DNA from: Sulfuricurvum sp.
Lineage (GTDB): Bacteria; Campylobacterota; Campylobacteria; Campylobacterales; Sulfurimonadaceae
Assembly: GCA_030694265.1 (NCBI GenBank)
Contig: JAUXYP010000002.1
Span: 186,001-250,000, forward strand
Length of the DNA: 64,000 bases
Reading direction: 5' to 3'
The notes below the pieces were generated by a model that ran no database searches, was not told where the DNA came from, and saw only the letters and a program-made list of their open reading frames with translations. Position 1 is the first letter of the stretch; each line of letters opens with the position of its first letter. The translations under genes were made by a program, and so were the position numbers. Of this stretch, positions 40,452 through 49,162 are shown one piece after another.

Positions 40452-40889
40452 ATGTTTTCTGAATTTAAAAAGTTTTTAATCAGTGGTAATGTTATTGATA
40501 TGGCAGTAGGTTTTATTTTTGGAGCGGCATTTGCCACCGTTGTAAAATCATTGGTGACGAATATCATTATGCCTCCTGTGGGTCTGTTGATGGGGGGAGT
40601 TGATTTTTCATCCTTGTTTATTGCTTTGGATGGGAAAGAGTATGTTTCCTTGGCAGCACTTGATGCCGCTGGTGCACCGGCGATCAAATTGGGTGTGTTT
40701 GTAAATGATCTCATTTCATTTACTATTTTAGGATTCGTGATGTTTATGATGGTAAAAGCGTATAACAAGCTCAAAGCTTCACAGACTATAGTCGAAGCGG
40801 TAGTTCCTGTAACCAAAGTATGTCCAGAATGCGCAATGGAGATTCCCGTTGCTGCAAAAACGTGCCCTCATTGCAGAACAGCACAATAG
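40452..40889 (+). CDS. mscL: large-conductance mechanosensitive channel with C-terminal zinc ribbon
   Basis: MscL opens under membrane tension to release solutes. The channel core is normal: FKKFLISGNVIDMAVGFIFGAAFATVVKSLV (blocks FKKFLISGNVIDMAVGFIFG and AAFATVVKSLV), NIIMPPVGLLMGG, and TM2 with FVNDLISFTILGFVMFMMVKAYNKL (blocks FVNDLISFTILGFVMF and VKAYNKL). The usual C-terminal helix is replaced or extended by VCPECAMEIPVAAKTCPHCR: two CxxC knuckles, a zinc ribbon, at residues about 123-142. The gene is single; the ribosome binding site is weak. Confidence 0.92.
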   Translation: MFSEFKKFLISGNVIDMAVGFIFGAAFATVVKSLVTNIIMPPVGLLMGGVDFSSLFIALDGKEYVSLAALDAAGAPAIKLGVFVNDLISFTILGFVMFMMVKAYNKLKASQTIVEAVVPVTKVCPECAMEIPVAAKTCPHCRTAQ

Positions 40890-42085: not shown

Positions 42086-42118
42086 CTTCACAATCTCTTC
42101 ACAATCATTTTTTATACT
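42086..42118 (+). promoter_or_regulatory. direct-repeat operator and -10 for the cytochrome c operon
   Basis: CTTCACAATC occurs twice, at 42086-42095 and 42097-42106: an exact 10-base direct repeat with 11-base periodicity. It is followed by a T-run and the -10 TATACT (42113-42118). OmpR/PhoB-type regulators bind just such 11-base direct repeats over the -35. A response regulator of this class is encoded 1.9 kb away (44008-44676). Confidence 0.6.
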
Positions 42119-42173
42119 GCTCCTATCAAATGAGAGTCTCAACTAAGAGATTTTCAAAATGAAGGAGTTACCA

Positions 42174-42503
42174 ATGAAAAAGTTACTAATGATCTTAGCT
42201 TCAGTTGCCTTAGTGGTTTCGGTTGCACAAGCAGATGTAAAATCAGGGCAAAAAGCGTATTTAAAAACGTTAAAAAGCTATTTTTCCATGAATGGAACCA
42301 AGTTTGCGGCAGAGCATTCGGTAGCTGAGTGGGAAGCGCTTTTTGCCGATGGTGCAAAAGGATTTATCAAAGAGTACGGTGAGCGTTTTCCAAATGCACA
42401 AGCGCAATTAAATAACCCGGCTAACGCTGCCAAGCTTCAAGATATTGGCGATTTCGCAAAAGAATACGGCAACGATTCGGGTAATGTCCCATCTTGCGGT
42501 TAA
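42174..42503 (+). CDS. small periplasmic protein
   Basis: The product is 109 residues with a signal peptide (MKKLLMILASVALVVSVAQA, cleavage about after residue 20). I use the ATG at 42174, with AAGGAG 7 bases upstream, not the in-frame ATG at 42159. The mature part is helical (SGQKAYLKTLKSYFSMNGTK, HSVAEWEALFADG) and ends NVPSCG, with a single Cys; no CxxCH heme site. The shape resembles a cytochrome-like helical fold without heme, which is only a guess. It lies 24 bases before a cytochrome c gene, under a direct-repeat promoter. Confidence 0.65.
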   Translation: MKKLLMILASVALVVSVAQADVKSGQKAYLKTLKSYFSMNGTKFAAEHSVAEWEALFADGAKGFIKEYGERFPNAQAQLNNPANAAKLQDIGDFAKEYGNDSGNVPSCG

Positions 42504-42527
42504 ATAAAGAGTATACATAAAGGATTT

Positions 42528-42824
42528 ATGATGAAAACGTTACTTGCAATTTTAGGTCTTACGGTTATGTTGAGCGCTGCGGATGGCAGTGCTTTGTATC
42601 AAAAATGTGCGGCGTGTCACGGGCTAAAAGGGGAAAAACAGGCCCTAGGAAAGTCTCAGGCTATTGGCGGATGGAAAGCGGATAAAACGCTTGAAGCTCT
42701 GAAGGGCTATAAAGCTGGAACCCGTAATACCAAAGGGATGGGTGCTTTGATGAAAGGTCAAATGGCGAGTATTAATGATGCTGATATGAAAGTATTGGCA
42801 GATTACATCGCAACAATAAAATAA
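42528..42824 (+). CDS. monoheme c-type cytochrome (c553-like)
   Basis: A 98-residue periplasmic cytochrome c: signal peptide to about residue 17 (LSAA), heme site CAACH in YQKCAACHGLKGE, and a late Met ligand candidate in KGMGALMKGQM. The size and the GWKADKTLEALKGYKAG block match class I c553-type electron carriers in Campylobacterota, which feed terminal oxidases or peroxidases. It probably forms an operon with the preceding small periplasmic protein and converges on a sensor kinase gene. Confidence 0.88.
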   Translation: MMKTLLAILGLTVMLSAADGSALYQKCAACHGLKGEKQALGKSQAIGGWKADKTLEALKGYKAGTRNTKGMGALMKGQMASINDADMKVLADYIATIK

Positions 42825-42839
42825 TTCTTTCTTAGGCTT

Positions 42840-42857
42840 TTCCCATATTTATGGGAA
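42840..42857. terminator. hairpin between convergent cytochrome and kinase genes
   Basis: TTCCCATA and TATGGGAA form a perfect 8-bp stem with a TT loop, exactly in the 33-base gap between the two converging stops. It could serve both directions; the T-tracts are short. Confidence 0.55.
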
Positions 42858-44045
42858 TTAGCCCCTCCAACTCACACAAATCTTCGTTCCCTTTTGCTCT
42901 TCGGATTCGATGGTGATATCTAGATCATATTCTTTTGCGATCATGGCAACGATATGCAGACCGATCCCGAATCCCCCAACACTTTTATCGGCTCTGGTAT
43001 AGCGCTCGAATACCTGTTGGATCATGGAGGAAGGAATTCCGATTCCATTATCTTGTATGCACAACAATGTCGGATTTAAGTTAATGGTGAGGATTCCCTC
43101 CATTTTGTTGTATTTGATAGCATTTGAGAGGAGGTTGTCGATAATACGGGTCATCTTGGTACGATCAATGGTGAGGATACAATGAGGGGTTATAGCAAGC
43201 TCTACGTGAAGCTTCTTTTGCACTATGTGATGGCGAAAGTATTCCAGCCGTTCTTGTAATAATTCACTCACATCAAGCGGTTCGTTTATGACGGCCAGAT
43301 CATGATTCAAGATGAGGTAGGTCAGATCATTGTACAGGGTGGAGATTGTTCGCGATGCGATTTCGATACGGTTTAATTTTTTTTGCATCGTTTGAGGGAT
43401 ATCTGTTTCTTTAAGTGCTTCTAAATTGGTCAAAATAGCACTAATGGGTGTGTTGAGCTCATGGGTGGTGTCTTTGATAAAATCATCCAATAGGGCAATG
43501 GCTTCGTTCATTGGGCGCAAGAGTAAGCGAGAAAATATAAAGCCGATCAGAAGTAAAAAAGTGAATAAGATGGACCCAATTACAACCGATGTTTCAATAG
43601 CATCTGTTCGCCATAATCCATCATCAGGGGTTTCGATTACCAAATAAAACTCTCCCAGCCCATAAGGGGCCAAAGGGACAACAAGATGCACGTAGTTGTT
43701 TTTTAAGGCAATGTTCTCTTTGAAATCTATGGAATTATTGTGTAAATTTCCAACAAGAATTTTTTTATCGTATCCATAAAGAGCGGTTTCGTAAGCGAGA
43801 TCTTTTGGGAATGTGGCCAGATCGCGGTCTTTTTCAAGCCATTGTTTGAGGATGGGGACATAGCTCTCAGATTCCAACTGCATCGCAAGCCGGTGAGAGG
43901 AGAGCATCTGCATTTTAGAGTATTGAAAATACAACGTCCCTAATAATGCCAGAATCACGATAATCAACGCTCCATAGAGCGCCAAAAATCGTTTGAGTGT
44001 TCGGTATTTAGCGGAACTGATACCCGATGCGTTTGTGGCTGACAA
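42858..44045 (-). CDS. two-component sensor histidine kinase (system 1)
   Basis: A 395-residue membrane kinase: TM1 about residues 21-40, periplasmic sensor about 41-150, TM2 about 151-174, then the HisKA domain with phospho-acceptor His195 in THELNTPISAIL, and an ATPase domain with NLLSNAIKYN, DNGIGIP and GFGIGLHIV. The sensor shows no known domain. A TTG start at 44045 is used, overlapping the regulator gene by 38 bases with GGATCG upstream; there is no nearby ATG. It pairs with the regulator at 44008-44676. Confidence 0.9.
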   Translation of the reverse strand: MSATNASGISSAKYRTLKRFLALYGALIIVILALLGTLYFQYSKMQMLSSHRLAMQLESESYVPILKQWLEKDRDLATFPKDLAYETALYGYDKKILVGNLHNNSIDFKENIALKNNYVHLVVPLAPYGLGEFYLVIETPDDGLWRTDAIETSVVIGSILFTFLLLIGFIFSRLLLRPMNEAIALLDDFIKDTTHELNTPISAILTNLEALKETDIPQTMQKKLNRIEIASRTISTLYNDLTYLILNHDLAVINEPLDVSELLQERLEYFRHHIVQKKLHVELAITPHCILTIDRTKMTRIIDNLLSNAIKYNKMEGILTINLNPTLLCIQDNGIGIPSSMIQQVFERYTRADKSVGGFGIGLHIVAMIAKEYDLDITIESEEQKGTKICVSWRG

Positions 44046-44676
44046 TACGATCCTTTCCTAATAGTTTGCGAAGCGTTTTAATGTAGGTGCGCAGGCTTCC
44101 ATCGTTGGACGTTTCATCGTATTCCCATAAATGATCTATGATGGTTTCGTGTGTAAGCAGTTCTCCGGTATGTTGAATAAAGAGTTTGAGCAGTTTGTGT
44201 TCTTTGGGTTGAAGTGATTGCTCGGCGCCATTGATTTTGAGGGATTGATTCTCGGTATCGTAGCTAATTCCTTCTCCCAAAGCAATAACATCGCTGGGTG
44301 GGTGATAAAAATTACGTTTGAGTATGGTTTGTATCCGTAATAGAAGCTCTTTAAGTTCGTAAGGTTTGCGCAAGTAATCATCACCTCCGCTTTTAAATCC
44401 TTCTTCCAAATCGTTCATAGCGTTACGAGAGGTGATAAAAATGGCAGGAGTAGTATTCCCACTGCTGCGGGAGTTTTTCAAAAGTGAAAATCCATCCCCT
44501 CCGGGAACATTGACATCCAGCAGGAGTAAATCAAATTTGGTTTCATAAAGGAGGTCTTCTGCGCTTGCGGCATCGTAGGCACAGACAACCGTATACCCTT
44601 GAGCCTCTAGATATTCAGCGACGCTCTCGGAGAGGTTTGGATCATCTTCTAAAAGAAATAGCTTTGCTTTTGTCAT
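44008..44676 (-). CDS. OmpR-family response regulator (system 1)
   Basis: A 222-residue regulator: receiver domain with acidic pocket LLEDD, phospho-acceptor Asp54 in LLLLDVNVPGGDG, conserved Thr/Ser and Lys in FITSR and LRKPYEL; then an OmpR/PhoB winged helix with LTHETIIDHLWEYDETSNDGSLRTYIKTLRKLL (blocks LTHETIIDHLW, SLRTYIKTLRKLL) and RIGYQF. It is first of the pair with the kinase. Its likely target is the TTCACAATC direct repeat at 42086-42106, by proximity and spacing. Confidence 0.9.
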   Translation of the reverse strand: MTKAKLFLLEDDPNLSESVAEYLEAQGYTVVCAYDAASAEDLLYETKFDLLLLDVNVPGGDGFSLLKNSRSSGNTTPAIFITSRNAMNDLEEGFKSGGDDYLRKPYELKELLLRIQTILKRNFYHPPSDVIALGEGISYDTENQSLKINGAEQSLQPKEHKLLKLFIQHTGELLTHETIIDHLWEYDETSNDGSLRTYIKTLRKLLGKDRIVSHKRIGYQFR

Positions 44677-44701
44677 GAAAAGATTTTAGCATACGCAAAC
44701 A

Positions 44702-45511
44702 CTAAAAATAATAACCTAACCGCACGGCAATCTCGTTGTCACTGGTGGAATCACTCAGTCCATAGCGGTAATTTCCCAAAACAAACCAATGGGCATCGAG
44801 GGGAACCATACCATTAAGGGAAAAAGTTTTAAACGCTTCAACTCCTGTATAAATACTTTGGGATTGCGTATAGGCGACATTTACAAATCCGTTATTAAGC
44901 GTAGCGTATCCAATACCTGCGGTAAAAGCGGTGGTGTTGCGATATTGCACTGTATTGGGGATATTTTTATCGTTGGTCAGTGTGTAGGTTAACCCTCCAA
45001 AAACATGGTAGTGTTCATTCAAATCATACTGTGCATTTATGGATCCAAAGATATCTATAGCTTCGTTGTTGTACCCTGACTTATAGGTGGGTAAAATAAC
45101 TCCAAATCCTGGTTGGAGCGTTAGCGAAGAAGAAGGGTGCGTTTTAATATACAATCCCAACTGAGTATCATTCCATCCACTATCACTGGTATTGGTTTCA
45201 TCGGATCGAAAATAAGAGGTTAAAATCTGCGCGGACATATTTCCACGGTACACATCTGCTTGTAAAGTTGTCGTCAGAGTATTGGCCTTTTCCAAGGTAT
45301 TGTAATTGGTATCCGAATAGTTTGCACCAACGATGACATCGTAGGAAGTATCCGTAAAGAGTGTTTTCTTGGTACATCCAACATTGTCGACTAGATCACC
45401 AAAGGGAGTGTTCTTGCATCGATCCAATGTGTTATTGACTCCATCTAGATCGCTATCGGCCGCAAAAATCTGTAAAACACTTAGTAAAAGAATGAGTAGT
45501 ATTCGTTGCAT
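44702..45511 (-). CDS. outer membrane beta-barrel protein with one calcium-type repeat
   Basis: The 269-residue product has a signal peptide (about 1-17), then a thrombospondin type 3-like Ca-binding unit DSDLDGVNNTLDRCKNTPFGD with VDNVGC, followed by a barrel with alternating strands and many aromatic strand ends, closing EIAVRLGYYF (a C-terminal aromatic as in outer membrane barrels). The barrel resembles DUF3187/transporter-like porins. It follows the Met-rich secreted-protein gene by 8 bases and precedes system 1, so it may be in that operon. Function unknown. Confidence 0.75.
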   Translation of the reverse strand: MQRILLILLLSVLQIFAADSDLDGVNNTLDRCKNTPFGDLVDNVGCTKKTLFTDTSYDVIVGANYSDTNYNTLEKANTLTTTLQADVYRGNMSAQILTSYFRSDETNTSDSGWNDTQLGLYIKTHPSSSLTLQPGFGVILPTYKSGYNNEAIDIFGSINAQYDLNEHYHVFGGLTYTLTNDKNIPNTVQYRNTTAFTAGIGYATLNNGFVNVAYTQSQSIYTGVEAFKTFSLNGMVPLDAHWFVLGNYRYGLSDSTSDNEIAVRLGYYF

Positions 45512-45519
45512 AAGATCTC

Positions 45520-45846
45520 CTAGCGTCGAGTGTTTGTATGTTGATTGTTCATTGCGCCCATACTGCCTTGATGTTGTACATTAGAGTGCATGTTTTGCAT
45601 CGACATATCTTGTCCGCTGCGTGTGCCCGCCAAATTTCCATTCATCCCTATTTGAAGCTTGCGAATTGCTTCGCTTCGCTCTTGTGCATTCATAGCGGCG
45701 AGTCTTGTTTTGAGTTGATTCATCATCTCTGCCCGTTCTTTTTGAGGGGCTTTTAGGATGCGTGTAATTTCTTGATCGATTGAGCTGTCCGCATAGAGAT
45801 GACTGATCAAAGCGAGAAAGAGTACAACAGAGATACTACGTTTCAT
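45520..45846 (-). CDS. secreted Met/His/Gln-rich protein A
   Basis: The 108-residue product has a signal peptide (MKRSISVVLFLALISHLYA, about 19 residues). A helical middle (IDQEITRILKAPQKERAEMM, LAAMNAQERSEAIRKLQ) is followed by a tail rich in Met, His, Gln and Asn: QDMSMQNMHSNVQHQGSMG then AMNNQH. Such Met/His tails can bind copper or silver ions. The helical part recalls CpxP/Spy-type periplasmic sensors, but I see no LTxxQ motif. It is preceded at 45886-45907 by the operator-like repeat shared with protein B. Confidence 0.7.
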   Translation of the reverse strand: MKRSISVVLFLALISHLYADSSIDQEITRILKAPQKERAEMMNQLKTRLAAMNAQERSEAIRKLQIGMNGNLAGTRSGQDMSMQNMHSNVQHQGSMGAMNNQHTNTRR

Positions 45847-45885
45847 TAAAGAATCCTTCTTAATTTCAATAGAGTATTTTAGGCA

Positions 45886-45907
45886 AAAAACATTAGCGAA
45901 GCGTTAG
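45886..45907 (-). promoter_or_regulatory. 22-bp regulatory element, copy 1 (before protein A)
   Basis: On the plus strand: AAAAACATTAG, CGAAG, CGTTAG. It contains TTAG at 45893 and 45904, an exact 11-base period. It matches the element at 48002-48023 at 19 of 22 positions. It ends 40 bases before the protein A ATG and overlaps the stop of the system 2 kinase gene. Confidence 0.65.
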
Positions 45908-46948
45908 TGCTTTTAGGTTCAGAGTAAAAAGACTTCCCTGATTCACGGTACTTTGGACATGAATTATTATACCAAGCTCATCACACAATTTTTTAACGAT
46001 ATGGAGTCCTATTCCAAGTCCTCGTTCATGTTCTTTATAAAAACGATCAAATATTTTTTCAGGATAGTGAATCCCTTTTCCGGTATCTTGGATACGCAGT
46101 ATTGCCGTTTTGGGATCAATGTTGATGGTTACAGACCCCTGATCTGTATTGTATTTAGCGGCATTGCTCAACAAATTGTCGATAATGCGGGTGATAGCAT
46201 CGTGATTGACGAGAATTTTGAGCGTTGAATCGTTAATGAAGAAAGAAATATGAGGGTACAGTCTTTGGACGATCGCAAGTCGTTCTTGCAGTAACGTATG
46301 CAGTTCCAATGGAGCACTTTGGAGGGCATGCCCCTCGAGGTATCCACGTAAATTGTCGCCAAGAGAAACGATGGTCTGTATGCTTTGTTCGATTCGATGA
46401 AGCTTTTTTGTTTCGCTTTGGGGGAGGTTTAATCGGCTGACATTAAGCCGTAAACTGGAGAGTGGCGTGTTTAAATCATGCAGTATATCGCGACTGAATT
46501 CTTGAGTTAAATGCAATGCTTTTCGTAGAGGATACAGAGCGTAAAGTGAAAAGAGGGCAGACAATAGAGCAAGAACTGTCAGGATAATCAGATAGGTTTT
46601 GATCATTGTGGTTTTTGTTTGATACAGCAGCGCTTCATAATGGCGCTTGGCATAATGAAGCTTGAGCGCGTATTGGTCGCTTCCTGGAATGGAGAAGAGG
46701 GCGTACATCCCCCCTTGATCCTGCTGTAGTTGGTAAAGGGTGCTGGTATGCAAAGGGACAAAATCAAAAGTAAACTGGGTACACTTTAAATCGAAACTGC
46801 ATAACTTCATTTCGTTGAAAACAGAGAGCTCAATTGCCTGACGTTTCTTGGTGTACTCATAATAGACAACCAAACCGCTTAACAGTGCGAGAGAGATGAA
46901 GAACACTAAAAAGCTTTTGATAAAAGATTCTGTTTCAGCTCTCTTCAA
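45893..46948 (-). CDS. two-component sensor histidine kinase (system 2)
   Basis: A 351-residue kinase: TM1 about residues 11-31, a periplasmic loop of about 80 residues with two Cys (50 and 56, in KLCSFDLKC), TM2 about 115-139, then HisKA with His157 in DILHDLNTPLSSLRLN and the ATPase domain with NLLSNAAKYN, DTGKGI and RGLGIGLHIV. The two Cys in the sensor could form a disulfide or bind metal. Its start overlaps the regulator's end by 14 bases. The 22-bp element of protein A overlaps its stop codon. Confidence 0.9.
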   Translation of the reverse strand: MKRAETESFIKSFLVFFISLALLSGLVVYYEYTKKRQAIELSVFNEMKLCSFDLKCTQFTFDFVPLHTSTLYQLQQDQGGMYALFSIPGSDQYALKLHYAKRHYEALLYQTKTTMIKTYLIILTVLALLSALFSLYALYPLRKALHLTQEFSRDILHDLNTPLSSLRLNVSRLNLPQSETKKLHRIEQSIQTIVSLGDNLRGYLEGHALQSAPLELHTLLQERLAIVQRLYPHISFFINDSTLKILVNHDAITRIIDNLLSNAAKYNTDQGSVTINIDPKTAILRIQDTGKGIHYPEKIFDRFYKEHERGLGIGLHIVKKLCDELGIIIHVQSTVNQGSLFTLNLKALTLR

Positions 46949-47567
46949 GACGGTATCCTATTCCTCTTACATTGTGAATTTCCCATCCAGTAGTATGTTT
47001 GAGTTTGTTAATCGCAACGCGCAAGGCGGTATCGCTTGGATGCTCCATAAGATCAAAAAGAGATTCTTTGGTAAGTGTTTTACCGATATTTTCGATAAAT
47101 AATTGCAAGAATGGGAGTTGAACTTCTCCCAGTGTAATAAGGTAATTGTTTTTTTTGACTTCACGAGTTTGTGGGTTGAATTCAATCTCCCCAACCTGAA
47201 TGAGTTTTTCTTTTCTGGCCATTTTTGCCTGAATACGTACGAGCAGTTCTTCAGGGAAAAACGGTTTTTTGAGATAATCTTCCGCCCCTAATGTAAAACC
47301 TTTGGAAATAGTGGCAATATCACTCATCGCGCTGATAAAAATAACAGAGGTGCTATCACCTGCATGACGTAAATCTTCGAGGAGTTGCAACCCATTTATT
47401 TTTGGGACGTTGATATCGAGAATGTAGAGATCATATCGGGTGTCGAATGAAGCATCGGCAGCTTCTTCACCATCTTTGACCCAATTGACATCATGATGAG
47501 CTTCCATTAGCATCTCTTCGATGGTTTCACCCAGGATGGTATCGTCTTCCATAAGCAATATTTTCAC
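46935..47567 (-). CDS. OmpR-family response regulator (system 2)
   Basis: A 210-residue regulator: MEDD acidic pocket, phospho-acceptor Asp51 in LYILDINVPKINGLQLL, FISAMSD and LKKPFFPEELL; then an OmpR-type winged helix with KESLFDLMEHPSDTALRVAIN and VRGIGYRLEES. It is slightly shorter in the DNA-binding part than PhoB-type proteins. A palindromic ATTATAAT at 47597-47604 gives a -10 about 30 bases upstream. It is the best candidate to bind the paired 22-bp elements flanking its operon. Confidence 0.9.
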   Translation of the reverse strand: MKILLMEDDTILGETIEEMLMEAHHDVNWVKDGEEAADASFDTRYDLYILDINVPKINGLQLLEDLRHAGDSTSVIFISAMSDIATISKGFTLGAEDYLKKPFFPEELLVRIQAKMARKEKLIQVGEIEFNPQTREVKKNNYLITLGEVQLPFLQLFIENIGKTLTKESLFDLMEHPSDTALRVAINKLKHTTGWEIHNVRGIGYRLEES

Positions 47568-47596
47568 CCAGATGCTCCTATTCTCAATTTCTGAAC

Positions 47597-47602
47597 ATTA
47601 TA
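47597..47602 (-). promoter_or_regulatory. -10 box for the system 2 regulator/kinase operon
   Basis: TATAAT on the minus strand (part of palindromic ATTATAAT), 30 bases before the regulator start. This separates the TCS operon from the upstream Met/Gln-rich gene, which ends in a hairpin. Confidence 0.55.
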
Positions 47603-47651
47603 ATAGACATCTTCAAAAAGTTCTATTGTATGAAAACGTTTTGAAAATGTT

Positions 47652-47672
47652 TTTGAGGGAGATCCCCTCAAA
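47652..47672 (-). terminator. hairpin after Met/Gln-rich protein B gene
   Basis: TTTGAGGG (47652-47659) and CCCTCAAA (47665-47672) form an 8-bp stem with a 5-base loop, 5 bases beyond the stop of the gene on the minus strand. It is followed on that strand by AAAACATTTTC; only a weak T-tract. Confidence 0.55.
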
Positions 47673-47676
47673 GGCT

Positions 47677-47964
47677 TTAGTGGCGTCCGCCACCTGCACG
47701 TGATTGCTGCATTCGGTTTTGCATGTGCGATTGTGATTGTGTCTGCATTTGCGACTGCATTTGAGTTTGCACACGATTCTGCATTTGGTTTTGGATTTGA
47801 GCGTCTGTTCCTATATTGGCTTGTTTCACTTGCATTTGATAGGCAGACTGAGTTCGATATTGTTCCTGAACTTTTGTTTGCTCCTGTGTCATGAGTGCAG
47901 ACTCATCTGCCATTGCGCAAAAAGCACTTAAGCTCCAAAGAGCGATTAGTTTGATTGTTTTCAT
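47677..47964 (-). CDS. secreted Met/Gln-rich protein B
   Basis: The 95-residue product has a signal peptide (MKTIKLIALWSLSAFCAMA) and a mature chain dominated by Gln and Met: QIQNQMQNRVQTQMQSQMQT then QSQSHMQNRMQQ, ending RAGGGRH. No fold is recognisable; it may be disordered or coiled. The DNA shows a matching low-complexity repeat. I use the ATG at 47964, with AAGGAA upstream; a longer in-frame ATG at 48009 would precede the signal peptide. The 22-bp element shared with protein A lies 38 bases upstream. Confidence 0.7.
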   Translation of the reverse strand: MKTIKLIALWSLSAFCAMADESALMTQEQTKVQEQYRTQSAYQMQVKQANIGTDAQIQNQMQNRVQTQMQSQMQTQSQSHMQNRMQQSRAGGGRH

Positions 47965-48001
47965 GGTGATTCCTTTTGTTTTGATAGCGTTATTGTCGCT
48001 G

Positions 48002-48023
48002 AAAAACATTAGTGCAGTGTTAG
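48002..48023 (-). promoter_or_regulatory. 22-bp regulatory element, copy 2 (before protein B)
   Basis: On the plus strand: AAAAACATTAG, TGCAG, TGTTAG, with TTAG at 48009 and 48020 (11-base period). It differs from copy 1 at three positions only and sits at almost the same distance from its gene (38 versus 40 bases). Confidence 0.65.
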
Positions 48024-48042
48024 CAGAAAAGTGCGATGGCGT

Positions 48043-48903
48043 TTAGAGATTCTTGACGCCATTTTTCCATGCAAGCGGAATCTCTTTGAGTGCAGCACCC
48101 ATAATCATTCCAATGATCATCCCCCGTGCGGCATTATCCCCGCCTGCTTGCGCATTGGCAATCATGGCACTTTGGTAATCATCATAACTCAGAAGAACGT
48201 GGATCGTCCCCTCAAATCCCCCTTCAACACCGCAGGCAGGGCCAAAGGTACGAATGGCATTAAAACTCTCTTCTCCCTTACTGTTGATCGCTGCACCGTG
48301 CGCACGAGCTAATAGCGGATCAACAGCAGTGTGTTTGAGTGTATCTGCAATAGTCGCTCCGAGAGCTACATCAAAGAGTACGGAGGCAAAAAACTGTGCC
48401 GCTTTGAGGGCAACGAGAGAGTTATGGGTCAAAGATACAAACATTTCGGTATTGGCTAAAAATTCTTCTTTGGATTTTGAGACTAACAGCAGTGGCGCGA
48501 TACGTCCGATAATAGAGAGATCATGAGAACTTGCACCACAAAGGGTTGAAGGATTATTTTTAAGAATAGCGAGCGTTTCACGACTGGAGCCATCGACGTA
48601 GCCTTGGTAAGCTTCCATTTTTTCAGCCCAAAAAGAAGCATAAAGGGAAGGGTCAAAACGGTTATGCATTTGGATGAATTCATGAAGCCACTTTGCGTGA
48701 TCGCCATAGTGGGTGAAGTCCCCTTTTTCTTTTCCCTTGTGCCACATGGCTTGGGGAGCATTGAGATCTTCCCAGTCGATTGGAAGATTTTTGAGTTGTC
48801 CCTCATCGTATATCCAGTGCGAACCTAGAGCGTAGGCATCTGCGACGAGAGCACCTTGGATAGCATTTATAATGGTTTGGGTTTCTAGATATTTATCGTT
48901 CAT
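48043..48903 (-). CDS. ADP-ribosylglycohydrolase family protein
   Basis: Members remove ADP-ribose from proteins (e.g. DraG) or act on related substrates. The 286-residue product has the helical fold marks: GALVADAYALGSHWIYD at the N-terminus, PSTLCGASSHDLSIIGRIAPLL (blocks GASSHDLSIIGRIAPLL), SLTHNSLVALKAAQFF, and QAGGDNAARGMIIGMIMGAAL near the end, where the GGDN-A region supplies metal ligands (usual form GGDTDT). The start ATG 48903 has AAGGA 8 bases upstream; ATG 48912 is less well placed. No obvious nitrogenase or toxin partner is adjacent. Confidence 0.82.
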   Translation of the reverse strand: MNDKYLETQTIINAIQGALVADAYALGSHWIYDEGQLKNLPIDWEDLNAPQAMWHKGKEKGDFTHYGDHAKWLHEFIQMHNRFDPSLYASFWAEKMEAYQGYVDGSSRETLAILKNNPSTLCGASSHDLSIIGRIAPLLLVSKSKEEFLANTEMFVSLTHNSLVALKAAQFFASVLFDVALGATIADTLKHTAVDPLLARAHGAAINSKGEESFNAIRTFGPACGVEGGFEGTIHVLLSYDDYQSAMIANAQAGGDNAARGMIIGMIMGAALKEIPLAWKNGVKNL

Positions 48904-49162
48904 CTTCTTCATCCTTTAAGGGTTTGAGCAGTGTTTGCATTTTTTTTTGTATTTGGGTTTTGATCGATTCATCGATACTTTTATTGGACGTTTTAGTACT
49001 TTTTATTAGTGTTTCTTGTGGATTGGAGGTGAGGGGGATCCATTTGATCGATTTGTCTTGGGTAGTGTTGGTAGTGGTCATACTAAGCGGCGTTTGTTCT
49101 TGGAAGGGTTCAAGGGCATGTGCGCTCAAAATGATGAGGCACAAAAAAGAAAACTTAGGCAA
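48893..49162 (-). CDS. small secreted protein
   Basis: From a TTG start at 49162 the 89-residue product begins MPKFSFLCLIILSAHALEPF, a good signal peptide. The mature part is polar, Thr/Lys/Ser-rich, and ends in a charged helix (KKMQTLLKPLKDEEDER). An upstream TTG at 49177 in the same frame is also possible. It overlaps the end of the antiporter gene and the start of the next gene, so it lies inside one operon. Not recognised. Confidence 0.5.
   Translation of the reverse strand: MPKFSFLCLIILSAHALEPFQEQTPLSMTTTNTTQDKSIKWIPLTSNPQETLIKSTKTSNKSIDESIKTQIQKKMQTLLKPLKDEEDER

Follow-up and report, generated by a model that had tools for sequence, protein, structure and literature searches.

When two two-component systems (TCSs) and a set of genes for exported proteins share 6 kb of DNA, do they make up one sensing system, or two that have become neighbors? 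The question is raised by a locus in a 64,000-nt stretch of a Sulfuricurvum sp. genome of 2.15 Mb (GenBank assembly GCA_030694265.1, contig JAUXYP010000002.1, here C18:186001-250000), hereafter called the window. A preliminary description had read this locus as a single, undescribed double sensing module, perhaps for metal or oxidative stress. All of the parts it named are present and in place, namely two OmpR-type pairs (regulators RR1 and RR2 with kinases HK1 and HK2), a small periplasmic protein (geneA), a cytochrome c, an outer-membrane barrel and two Met-rich proteins (Met1 and Met2). Seven genes follow one another on the minus strand in the order Met2, RR2, HK2, Met1, barrel, RR1, HK1, and geneA and the c-type cytochrome gene lie on the plus strand, convergent to them (Table 1). 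In the current study, these parts sorted into two modules that differ in distribution, trees and operator boxes, and the single linked module was not supported by the comparison. We consider it probable, at roughly 60%, that the island consists of two independent OmpR-type two-component modules that have become neighbors, which we term M1 (42087-44676) and M2 (44702-48024). Gene content, boxes, separate conservation and the insertion at one site described below were computed.

Distribution and Origin of the Two Modules

We searched 100 Campylobacterales relatives with each regulator and read approximately 100 regions. Among 41 Sulfuricurvum genomes, RR1 occurred in 36, RR2 in 16 and both in 15, with the two modules adjacent in nine. 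M1 and M2 were provably apart in five Sulfuricurvum genomes (G004, G011, G012, G025, and G035), where they lie on different contigs and have other neighbors; nitrogenase-like genes adjoin M2 in G035 and G012, and also in G011, as judged from an identical pattern of matches. The contig of G015 ends too soon for adjacency to be decided. Outside Sulfuricurvum, nine genomes carry both regulators and in none of these are they adjacent. The proposed check, whether the parts stay together in other Campylobacterota, came out mostly against linkage.

The companions of each TCS were also distinct. M2 recurs without M1 as a four-gene set, RR2-HK2-Met1-barrel, which is often preceded by a Met2/DUF1104 or a DUF2202 gene, and outside the adjacent clade the barrel is always accompanied by Met1, HK2, and RR2. 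M1, in the loci read, consists of RR1-HK1 together with geneA and the cytochrome; other families have RR1-HK1 next to a DUF1104 gene and a gene for a small cytochrome-like protein. Because of this co-occurrence across loci, we assign the cytochrome to the first TCS, and the barrel and the Met-rich proteins to the second.

How, then, did the modules come to lie together? In genomes without M2, RR1 usually follows an NhaC-like gene and overlaps its stop codon where measured, and for this reason M2 appears to have been inserted, in a subset of Sulfuricurvum, at the junction of NhaC and RR1. G022, which is close to G010 by HK1, has no M2 at this junction. In G032 (57% complete), no RR1 was found, and M2 has the NhaC-like gene on one side and argS/tatA genes on the other. 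HK2 copies from linked modules, with those of G015 and G032, group in a single clade (99/98) and unlinked Sulfuricurvum HK2 in another (87/87), and the HK1 partners of linked M2 fall into two clades, intermixed with M2-less genomes. This pattern would fit one insertion followed by several losses, or a second transfer.

Operator Boxes and Promoter Geometry

Each TCS had been credited with its own distinct direct-repeat motif, and this claim held: both repeats are present, conserved across genomes and specific to their module. In the window, TTCAC-N6-TTCAC (box1) has its sole exact match at 42087-42102, and CATTAGNNNAGNGTTAG has two, at 45891 and 48007 (box2). Window scans that allowed mismatches gave counts not above chance for either box; the significance of the motifs rests on cross-genome conservation and not on window counts. 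Both boxes repeat with a period of 11 bp, and the consensus of box2 is RCTAAY-N5-RCTAAYR. When all genes of the loci analyzed were scanned from -200 to +60, an exact box1 was found at 28 of 33 geneA genes, 7 of 52 cytochrome genes and 3 of 1022 other genes. Box2, with at most one mismatch, preceded 25/28 Met1 genes and 10/20 DUF1104-cluster genes vs. 18/1022 others, and it occurred at no geneA or cytochrome gene. All ten box2-bearing DUF1104-cluster genes belong to M2 loci, in which only second tandem copies are without the box. Thus, the boxes are module-specific, with no cross-over.

A TANNNT element lies exactly 10 nt past the end of box1 in 28/28 geneA promoters. This fixed spacing to the -10 puts box1 over the -35, as is usual in activation by PhoB/OmpR-type regulators; the spacing of box2 to its -10 is similar but looser. 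In the mechanism that we infer, with phosphorylation, DNA binding, activation and signal as its inferred steps, HK1 would activate RR1, which would bind the two TTCAC half-sites, spaced 11 bp apart over the -35, and turn on geneA and the c553-type cytochrome. Likewise, HK2 would activate RR2, which would bind two CTAAY half-sites with the same 11-bp spacing over the -35 and turn on Met1-barrel and Met2, plus a DUF2202 gene elsewhere in the window genome. The products of both systems are extracytoplasmic, in line with the preliminary reading.

Two further box1 sites of the window genome deserve mention. The ccoN gene (cbb3 oxidase) was considered as a second M1 target and rejected: its promoter has box1 without TANNNT at +10, and no exact box was found at ccoN in other genomes with readable upstream sequence, the sister G010 included, which marks the site as chance. 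An OprD-like porin gene (C18:115969, L235) has an exact box1 with TANNNT at +11 and is a possible further target.

In its strongest form, the one-system idea would have M2 transcription feed RR1-HK1, the level of the first sensor being set by the second. The distances from the barrel stop to the RR1 start on the same strand are 26, 26, 15, 15, and 15 nt in the adjacent genomes measured, and no terminator-like site was seen in the 26-nt gap of the window, so that an M2 transcript could read into RR1-HK1; the adjacency in nine genomes and the single clade of linked M2 copies would also suit coupling. In two further adjacent genomes, an ADP-ribosylglycohydrolase-like gene intervenes between barrel and RR1, 13 nt from RR1. 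Against coupling, the M2-less state has RR1 overlapping the NhaC-like stop, the close relative G022 does without M2, no RR2 boxes occur in M1 promoters and there is no linkage outside Sulfuricurvum. We regard coupling as improbable, and the one-system idea is not supported. A one-way cascade from the M2 promoter into RR1-HK1 is possible in the adjacent clade, where it would be a by-product of the M2 insertion.

The Exported Protein of M1

The view of two independent modules leaves M1 with two exported products. geneA has no database family match, but its AlphaFold2 (AF2) model is confident and all-helical (mean predicted local distance difference test score, pLDDT, 83.6). Four structures matched it with Z of at least 2, each of them a cytochrome c (64-75 residues aligned, Z 4.6-5.4), with Z of 5.3-5.4 against cytochromes c6; Foldseek gave nothing at E ≤ 0.001. 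The CXXCH heme motif is absent from 16/16 aligned geneA homologues. The model suggests that geneA is probably a cytochrome c fold without the heme motif, made beside a true cytochrome c, the Z scores being too low for certainty.

The M2 Proteins and Predicted Regulon

Met1 matched the DUF1104 set in profile-profile comparison with a probability of 96.5%, and residues R38, M42, N43, and K46 are invariant among its homologues. Searches of Pfam gave scattered sub-threshold matches for Met1, and its AF2 model is weak (pLDDT 61.5). Met2-type proteins of sister genomes match DUF1104 (PF06518) in 16/16 cases at E ≤ 0.1, one sister copy scoring 26.3 bits against a gathering score of 25, and the window's Met2 has no PF06518 match. 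Met2 of the window appears to stand in the place of a DUF1104 protein whose core has degenerated in this genome.

Genome-wide, box2 sites recur before DUF2202 genes, in the window genome, G012, G024, G035, G043, G047, and others. DUF2202 was present in 8/16 M2-bearing vs. 1/16 M2-less Sulfuricurvum genomes examined (Fisher p 0.015, uncorrected for kinship). In the literature searched, we found no function for DUF1104 or DUF2202 and no link of DUF1104 to a TCS; M2 gives these two families a common predicted regulator.

In relatives, the predicted RR2 box also precedes genes for tiny secreted peptides, which we call HH peptides. Twenty-three distinct precursors of 41-54 residues were collected, one of them cut by a contig end, and the mature form of approximately 24 residues starts with HH after an A-x-A site and later contains S[PG]HL or similar. 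Box2 (at most one mismatch) lies before 17/23 of the peptide genes, mostly at -59 to -63, vs. 11/1150 shuffled controls. The peptides matched neither a Pfam family above its cut-off nor any solved structure, and they constitute an undescribed family. They occur in 12/399 genomes of the order, and all 12 have an RR2 match (ten at E < 1e-50; G050 and G055 in a separate search), vs. 4/10 of the peptide-negative genomes searched alongside. The window genome has no HH peptide. In this survey, the family of secreted peptides was confined to genomes in which RR2 is present as well. Further support for a shared regulator comes from a genus designated g11, in which the half-site CTCAC replaces CTAAC, giving CTCAC-N6-CTCAC at Met1 and CTCRC-N6-CTCAC at the peptide (four genomes). 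Seen in parallel at two unlinked promoters, this shift argues strongly, at the sequence level, for a single regulator acting on both.

What M2 May Sense

For the second TCS, a theme of metal or oxidative stress is plausible. M2 would most likely serve to protect the periplasm and the cell surface from an excess of metal, such as copper, zinc, or another divalent metal, and we consider the odds that its signal is a metal to be about even. The HH peptides carry conserved His and Met. A CusA/CzcA-type HME-RND gene adjoins M2 in L145 and L149 (TIGR00914) and also in L418; apparent CDF-like genes lie beside Met1 in g11 and 80 nt past the barrel in L417, and apparent ZIP-like genes lie near L416 and near the G055 peptide. 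Altogether, metal transporters were found near 10/36 M2 loci vs. 4/66 M1 loci, a circumstantial count that is post hoc, with queries chosen after inspection, and uncorrected for kinship. Besides that limit, three observations weigh against a metal signal: no metal transporter lies near the window's own M2, the Met content of Met1 homologues ranges from 4 to 12%, and the curated heavy-metal TCS models TIGR01387 and TIGR01386 score below cut-off (RR2, 104 vs. 279 bits; HK2, 55 vs. 293 bits).

The main rival to a metal signal is an oxidant, such as reactive chlorine or thiol stress, sensed through the C50-x5-C56 pair of HK2 as a disulfide switch, with the Met-rich exported proteins as sacrificial scavengers. 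The Cys pair is kept in 23/27 HK2 relatives, Met1 and Met2 each contain 9% Met, and Met-rich periplasmic proteins are discussed for hypochlorite defense in papers such as PMC7464077 and PMC8315932. However, the pair is missing from g11 and Sulfurospirillum kinases that retain the operon; the Met content of Met1 homologues is variable, no methionine sulfoxide reductase gene was seen beside M2, and the peptides conserve His besides Met. We consider an oxidant system unlikely.

Also unlikely, and ranked behind the oxidant, is a general envelope stress system resembling Cpx or Zra. The DUF1104-like proteins would then be periplasmic chaperones or adaptors, and the barrel would be an output in outer-membrane assembly or a porin. 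Such a role would agree with the small helical exported proteins adjoining the kinase, the box-controlled gene upstream of the regulator, the conservation of the barrel and a sub-threshold similarity to Metal_resist in 3/16 DUF1104-type proteins. In contrast, neither Met1 nor the Met2-type proteins match the LTXXQ family (CpxP/Spy/ZraP), no protease or chaperone gene was found among the box2 sites, and HH peptides and DUF2202 better fit a stress-specific output. Keeping the metal signal as the preferred reading, a more far-reaching proposal is that M2 heads an undescribed metal-defense regulon of DUF1104-like Met-rich proteins, a Ca-repeat barrel, DUF2202 (possibly ferritin-like) and, in several genera, HH peptides that perhaps bind copper or another metal extracellularly; this proposal is tentative and, as a whole, doubtful.

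Features of the Locus

Table 1. Features of M1 and M2 in the window, with related loci of other genomes (last two rows).
Feature	Position	Strand	Basis or remark
box1, TTCAC-N6-TTCAC repeat TTCACAATCTCTTCAC over -35	42087-42102	+	predicted RR1 (DccR-like) site
-10 TATACT of geneA promoter	42113-42118	+	
geneA, exported small periplasmic protein, probably heme-less class I cytochrome c-like	42174-42503	+	AF2, structure matches
c553-type cytochrome c	42528-42824	+	Pfam PF00034 Cytochrom_C, E 4e-11; conserved with geneA
HK1, M1 sensor histidine kinase	42858-44045	-	HisKA, HATPase_c
RR1, OmpR-type regulator, DccR clade	44008-44676	-	tree
Outer-membrane barrel-type protein, N-terminal TSP3 Ca-type repeat, M2 operon	44702-45511	-	DUF3187, 24.5 bits (cut-off 24); TSP_3 sub-threshold
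Met1, exported helical Met-bearing protein, M2 operon	45520-45846	-	9% Met; distant DUF1104 relative
-10 TAAAAT for Met1	45876-45881	-	
box2a ACTAACGCTTCGCTAATG, predicted RR2 site for Met1-barrel	45891-45908	-	inside 3′ end of HK2
HK2, M2 sensor histidine kinase, periplasmic C50-x5-C56	45893-46948	-	Pfam
RR2, OmpR-type regulator of M2	46935-47567	-	Pfam; own clade
Met2, exported Met/Gln-rich protein	open reading frame 47677-48009, start probably 47964	-	9% Met, 20% Gln
box2b GCTAACACTGCACTAATG, predicted RR2 site for Met2	48007-48024	-	
HH peptide loci of relatives	L387:4107-4241, L388:3209-3340, L382:3083-3375, L389-L405		e.g., HHMAEYEDAGIYIPDWSPHLLMEFF after signal sequence
g11 half-site change	L143, L406-L408 (Met1); L375, L394-L396 (peptide loci)		

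Two neighboring genes are recorded here. The ADP-ribosylglycohydrolase-like gene at 48043-48912 shifts its position regionally: it lies in the Met2/NhaC gap in the window, between barrel and RR1 in L055 and L058, and between NhaC and RR1 in L053. At 40452-40889, a gene appears to encode an MscL-like channel with a C-terminal CPxC-type zinc-ribbon extension.

Comparison with Known Systems

Among known protein families, the M2 proteins come closest to DUF1104 (HP0721, PDB 2xrh), which the sister Met2-type proteins match and of which Met1 is a distant profile relative. Unlike DUF1104, the M2 proteins have Met/Gln/Gly-rich tails, and Met2 of the window is without the core. HP0721 itself matches a DUF1104 protein that adjoins a Helicobacter DccR-clade regulator.

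With the heavy-metal TCSs CusRS, CzcRS, and ZraPSR and, by analogy, with CrdRS of Helicobacter pylori, M2 shares an OmpR-type regulator, a periplasm-facing kinase, exported proteins bearing Met and His, and metal transporters near some of its copies. M2 differs in falling below the curated cut-offs. The systems named are not known to include DUF1104-like proteins, a TSP3 barrel, DUF2202, or HH peptides. No description of the second TCS was found in the literature searched, so that the label undescribed stands for M2; it does not stand for the first TCS, which is DccRS-like by tree and promoter.

A tree of 56 sequences places RR1 together with Campylobacter DccR (95/78) and RR2 in a clade of its own (100/99), and CprR, RacR, CosR, and PhosR fall outside the DccR clade. 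The RR1-DccR grouping is open to the objection that its Shimodaira-Hasegawa-like approximate likelihood ratio test (SH-aLRT) value is only 78, which is borderline. In Campylobacter bilis, the dccRS locus, named from sequence and gene order, apparently reads kefB-hspR-cbpA-htrA-cprRS-hemerythrin-dccRS-groEL-groES. WTTCAC-N6-TTCACW, which we take to be the DccR motif, lies upstream of genes for PepSY_like exported proteins in C. bilis and C. jejuni, with the -10 likewise at +10, and its first W is C in box1 of the window. As a separate observation, a record named Campylobacter jejuni isolate_S4 (L193:7526-9933) contains, between mutY-like and ung genes, an extra DUF1104-RR-HK set that groups near DccR.

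According to a review, DccS phosphorylates DccR in late stationary phase, and the few genes that DccR activates encode proteins of the periplasm and membrane (PMC9449129; also PMC3156733 and PMC9426514). DccRS of C. jejuni (Cj1223c-Cj1222c) and M1 are alike in regulator clade, in TTCAC-N6-TTCAC with the -10 at +10, and in having exported proteins as targets (PMC9449129). They differ in that M1 targets a cytochrome-like protein and a cytochrome c, in place of the PepSY_like proteins of Campylobacter, and in that M1 is not beside groEL and in Sulfuricurvum is coupled to the NhaC-like gene. Since the target genes differ from those of C. jejuni, we call M1 DccRS-like rather than DccRS. One apparent island is thus resolved into two regulons, each with a predicted operator and separately testable. 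M1 takes the DccRS family beyond animal-associated Campylobacter, to free-living sulfur oxidizers, in which the promoter geometry is fixed and the target is of a respiratory type; this target may be a lead on the original role of the DccR-type regulator.

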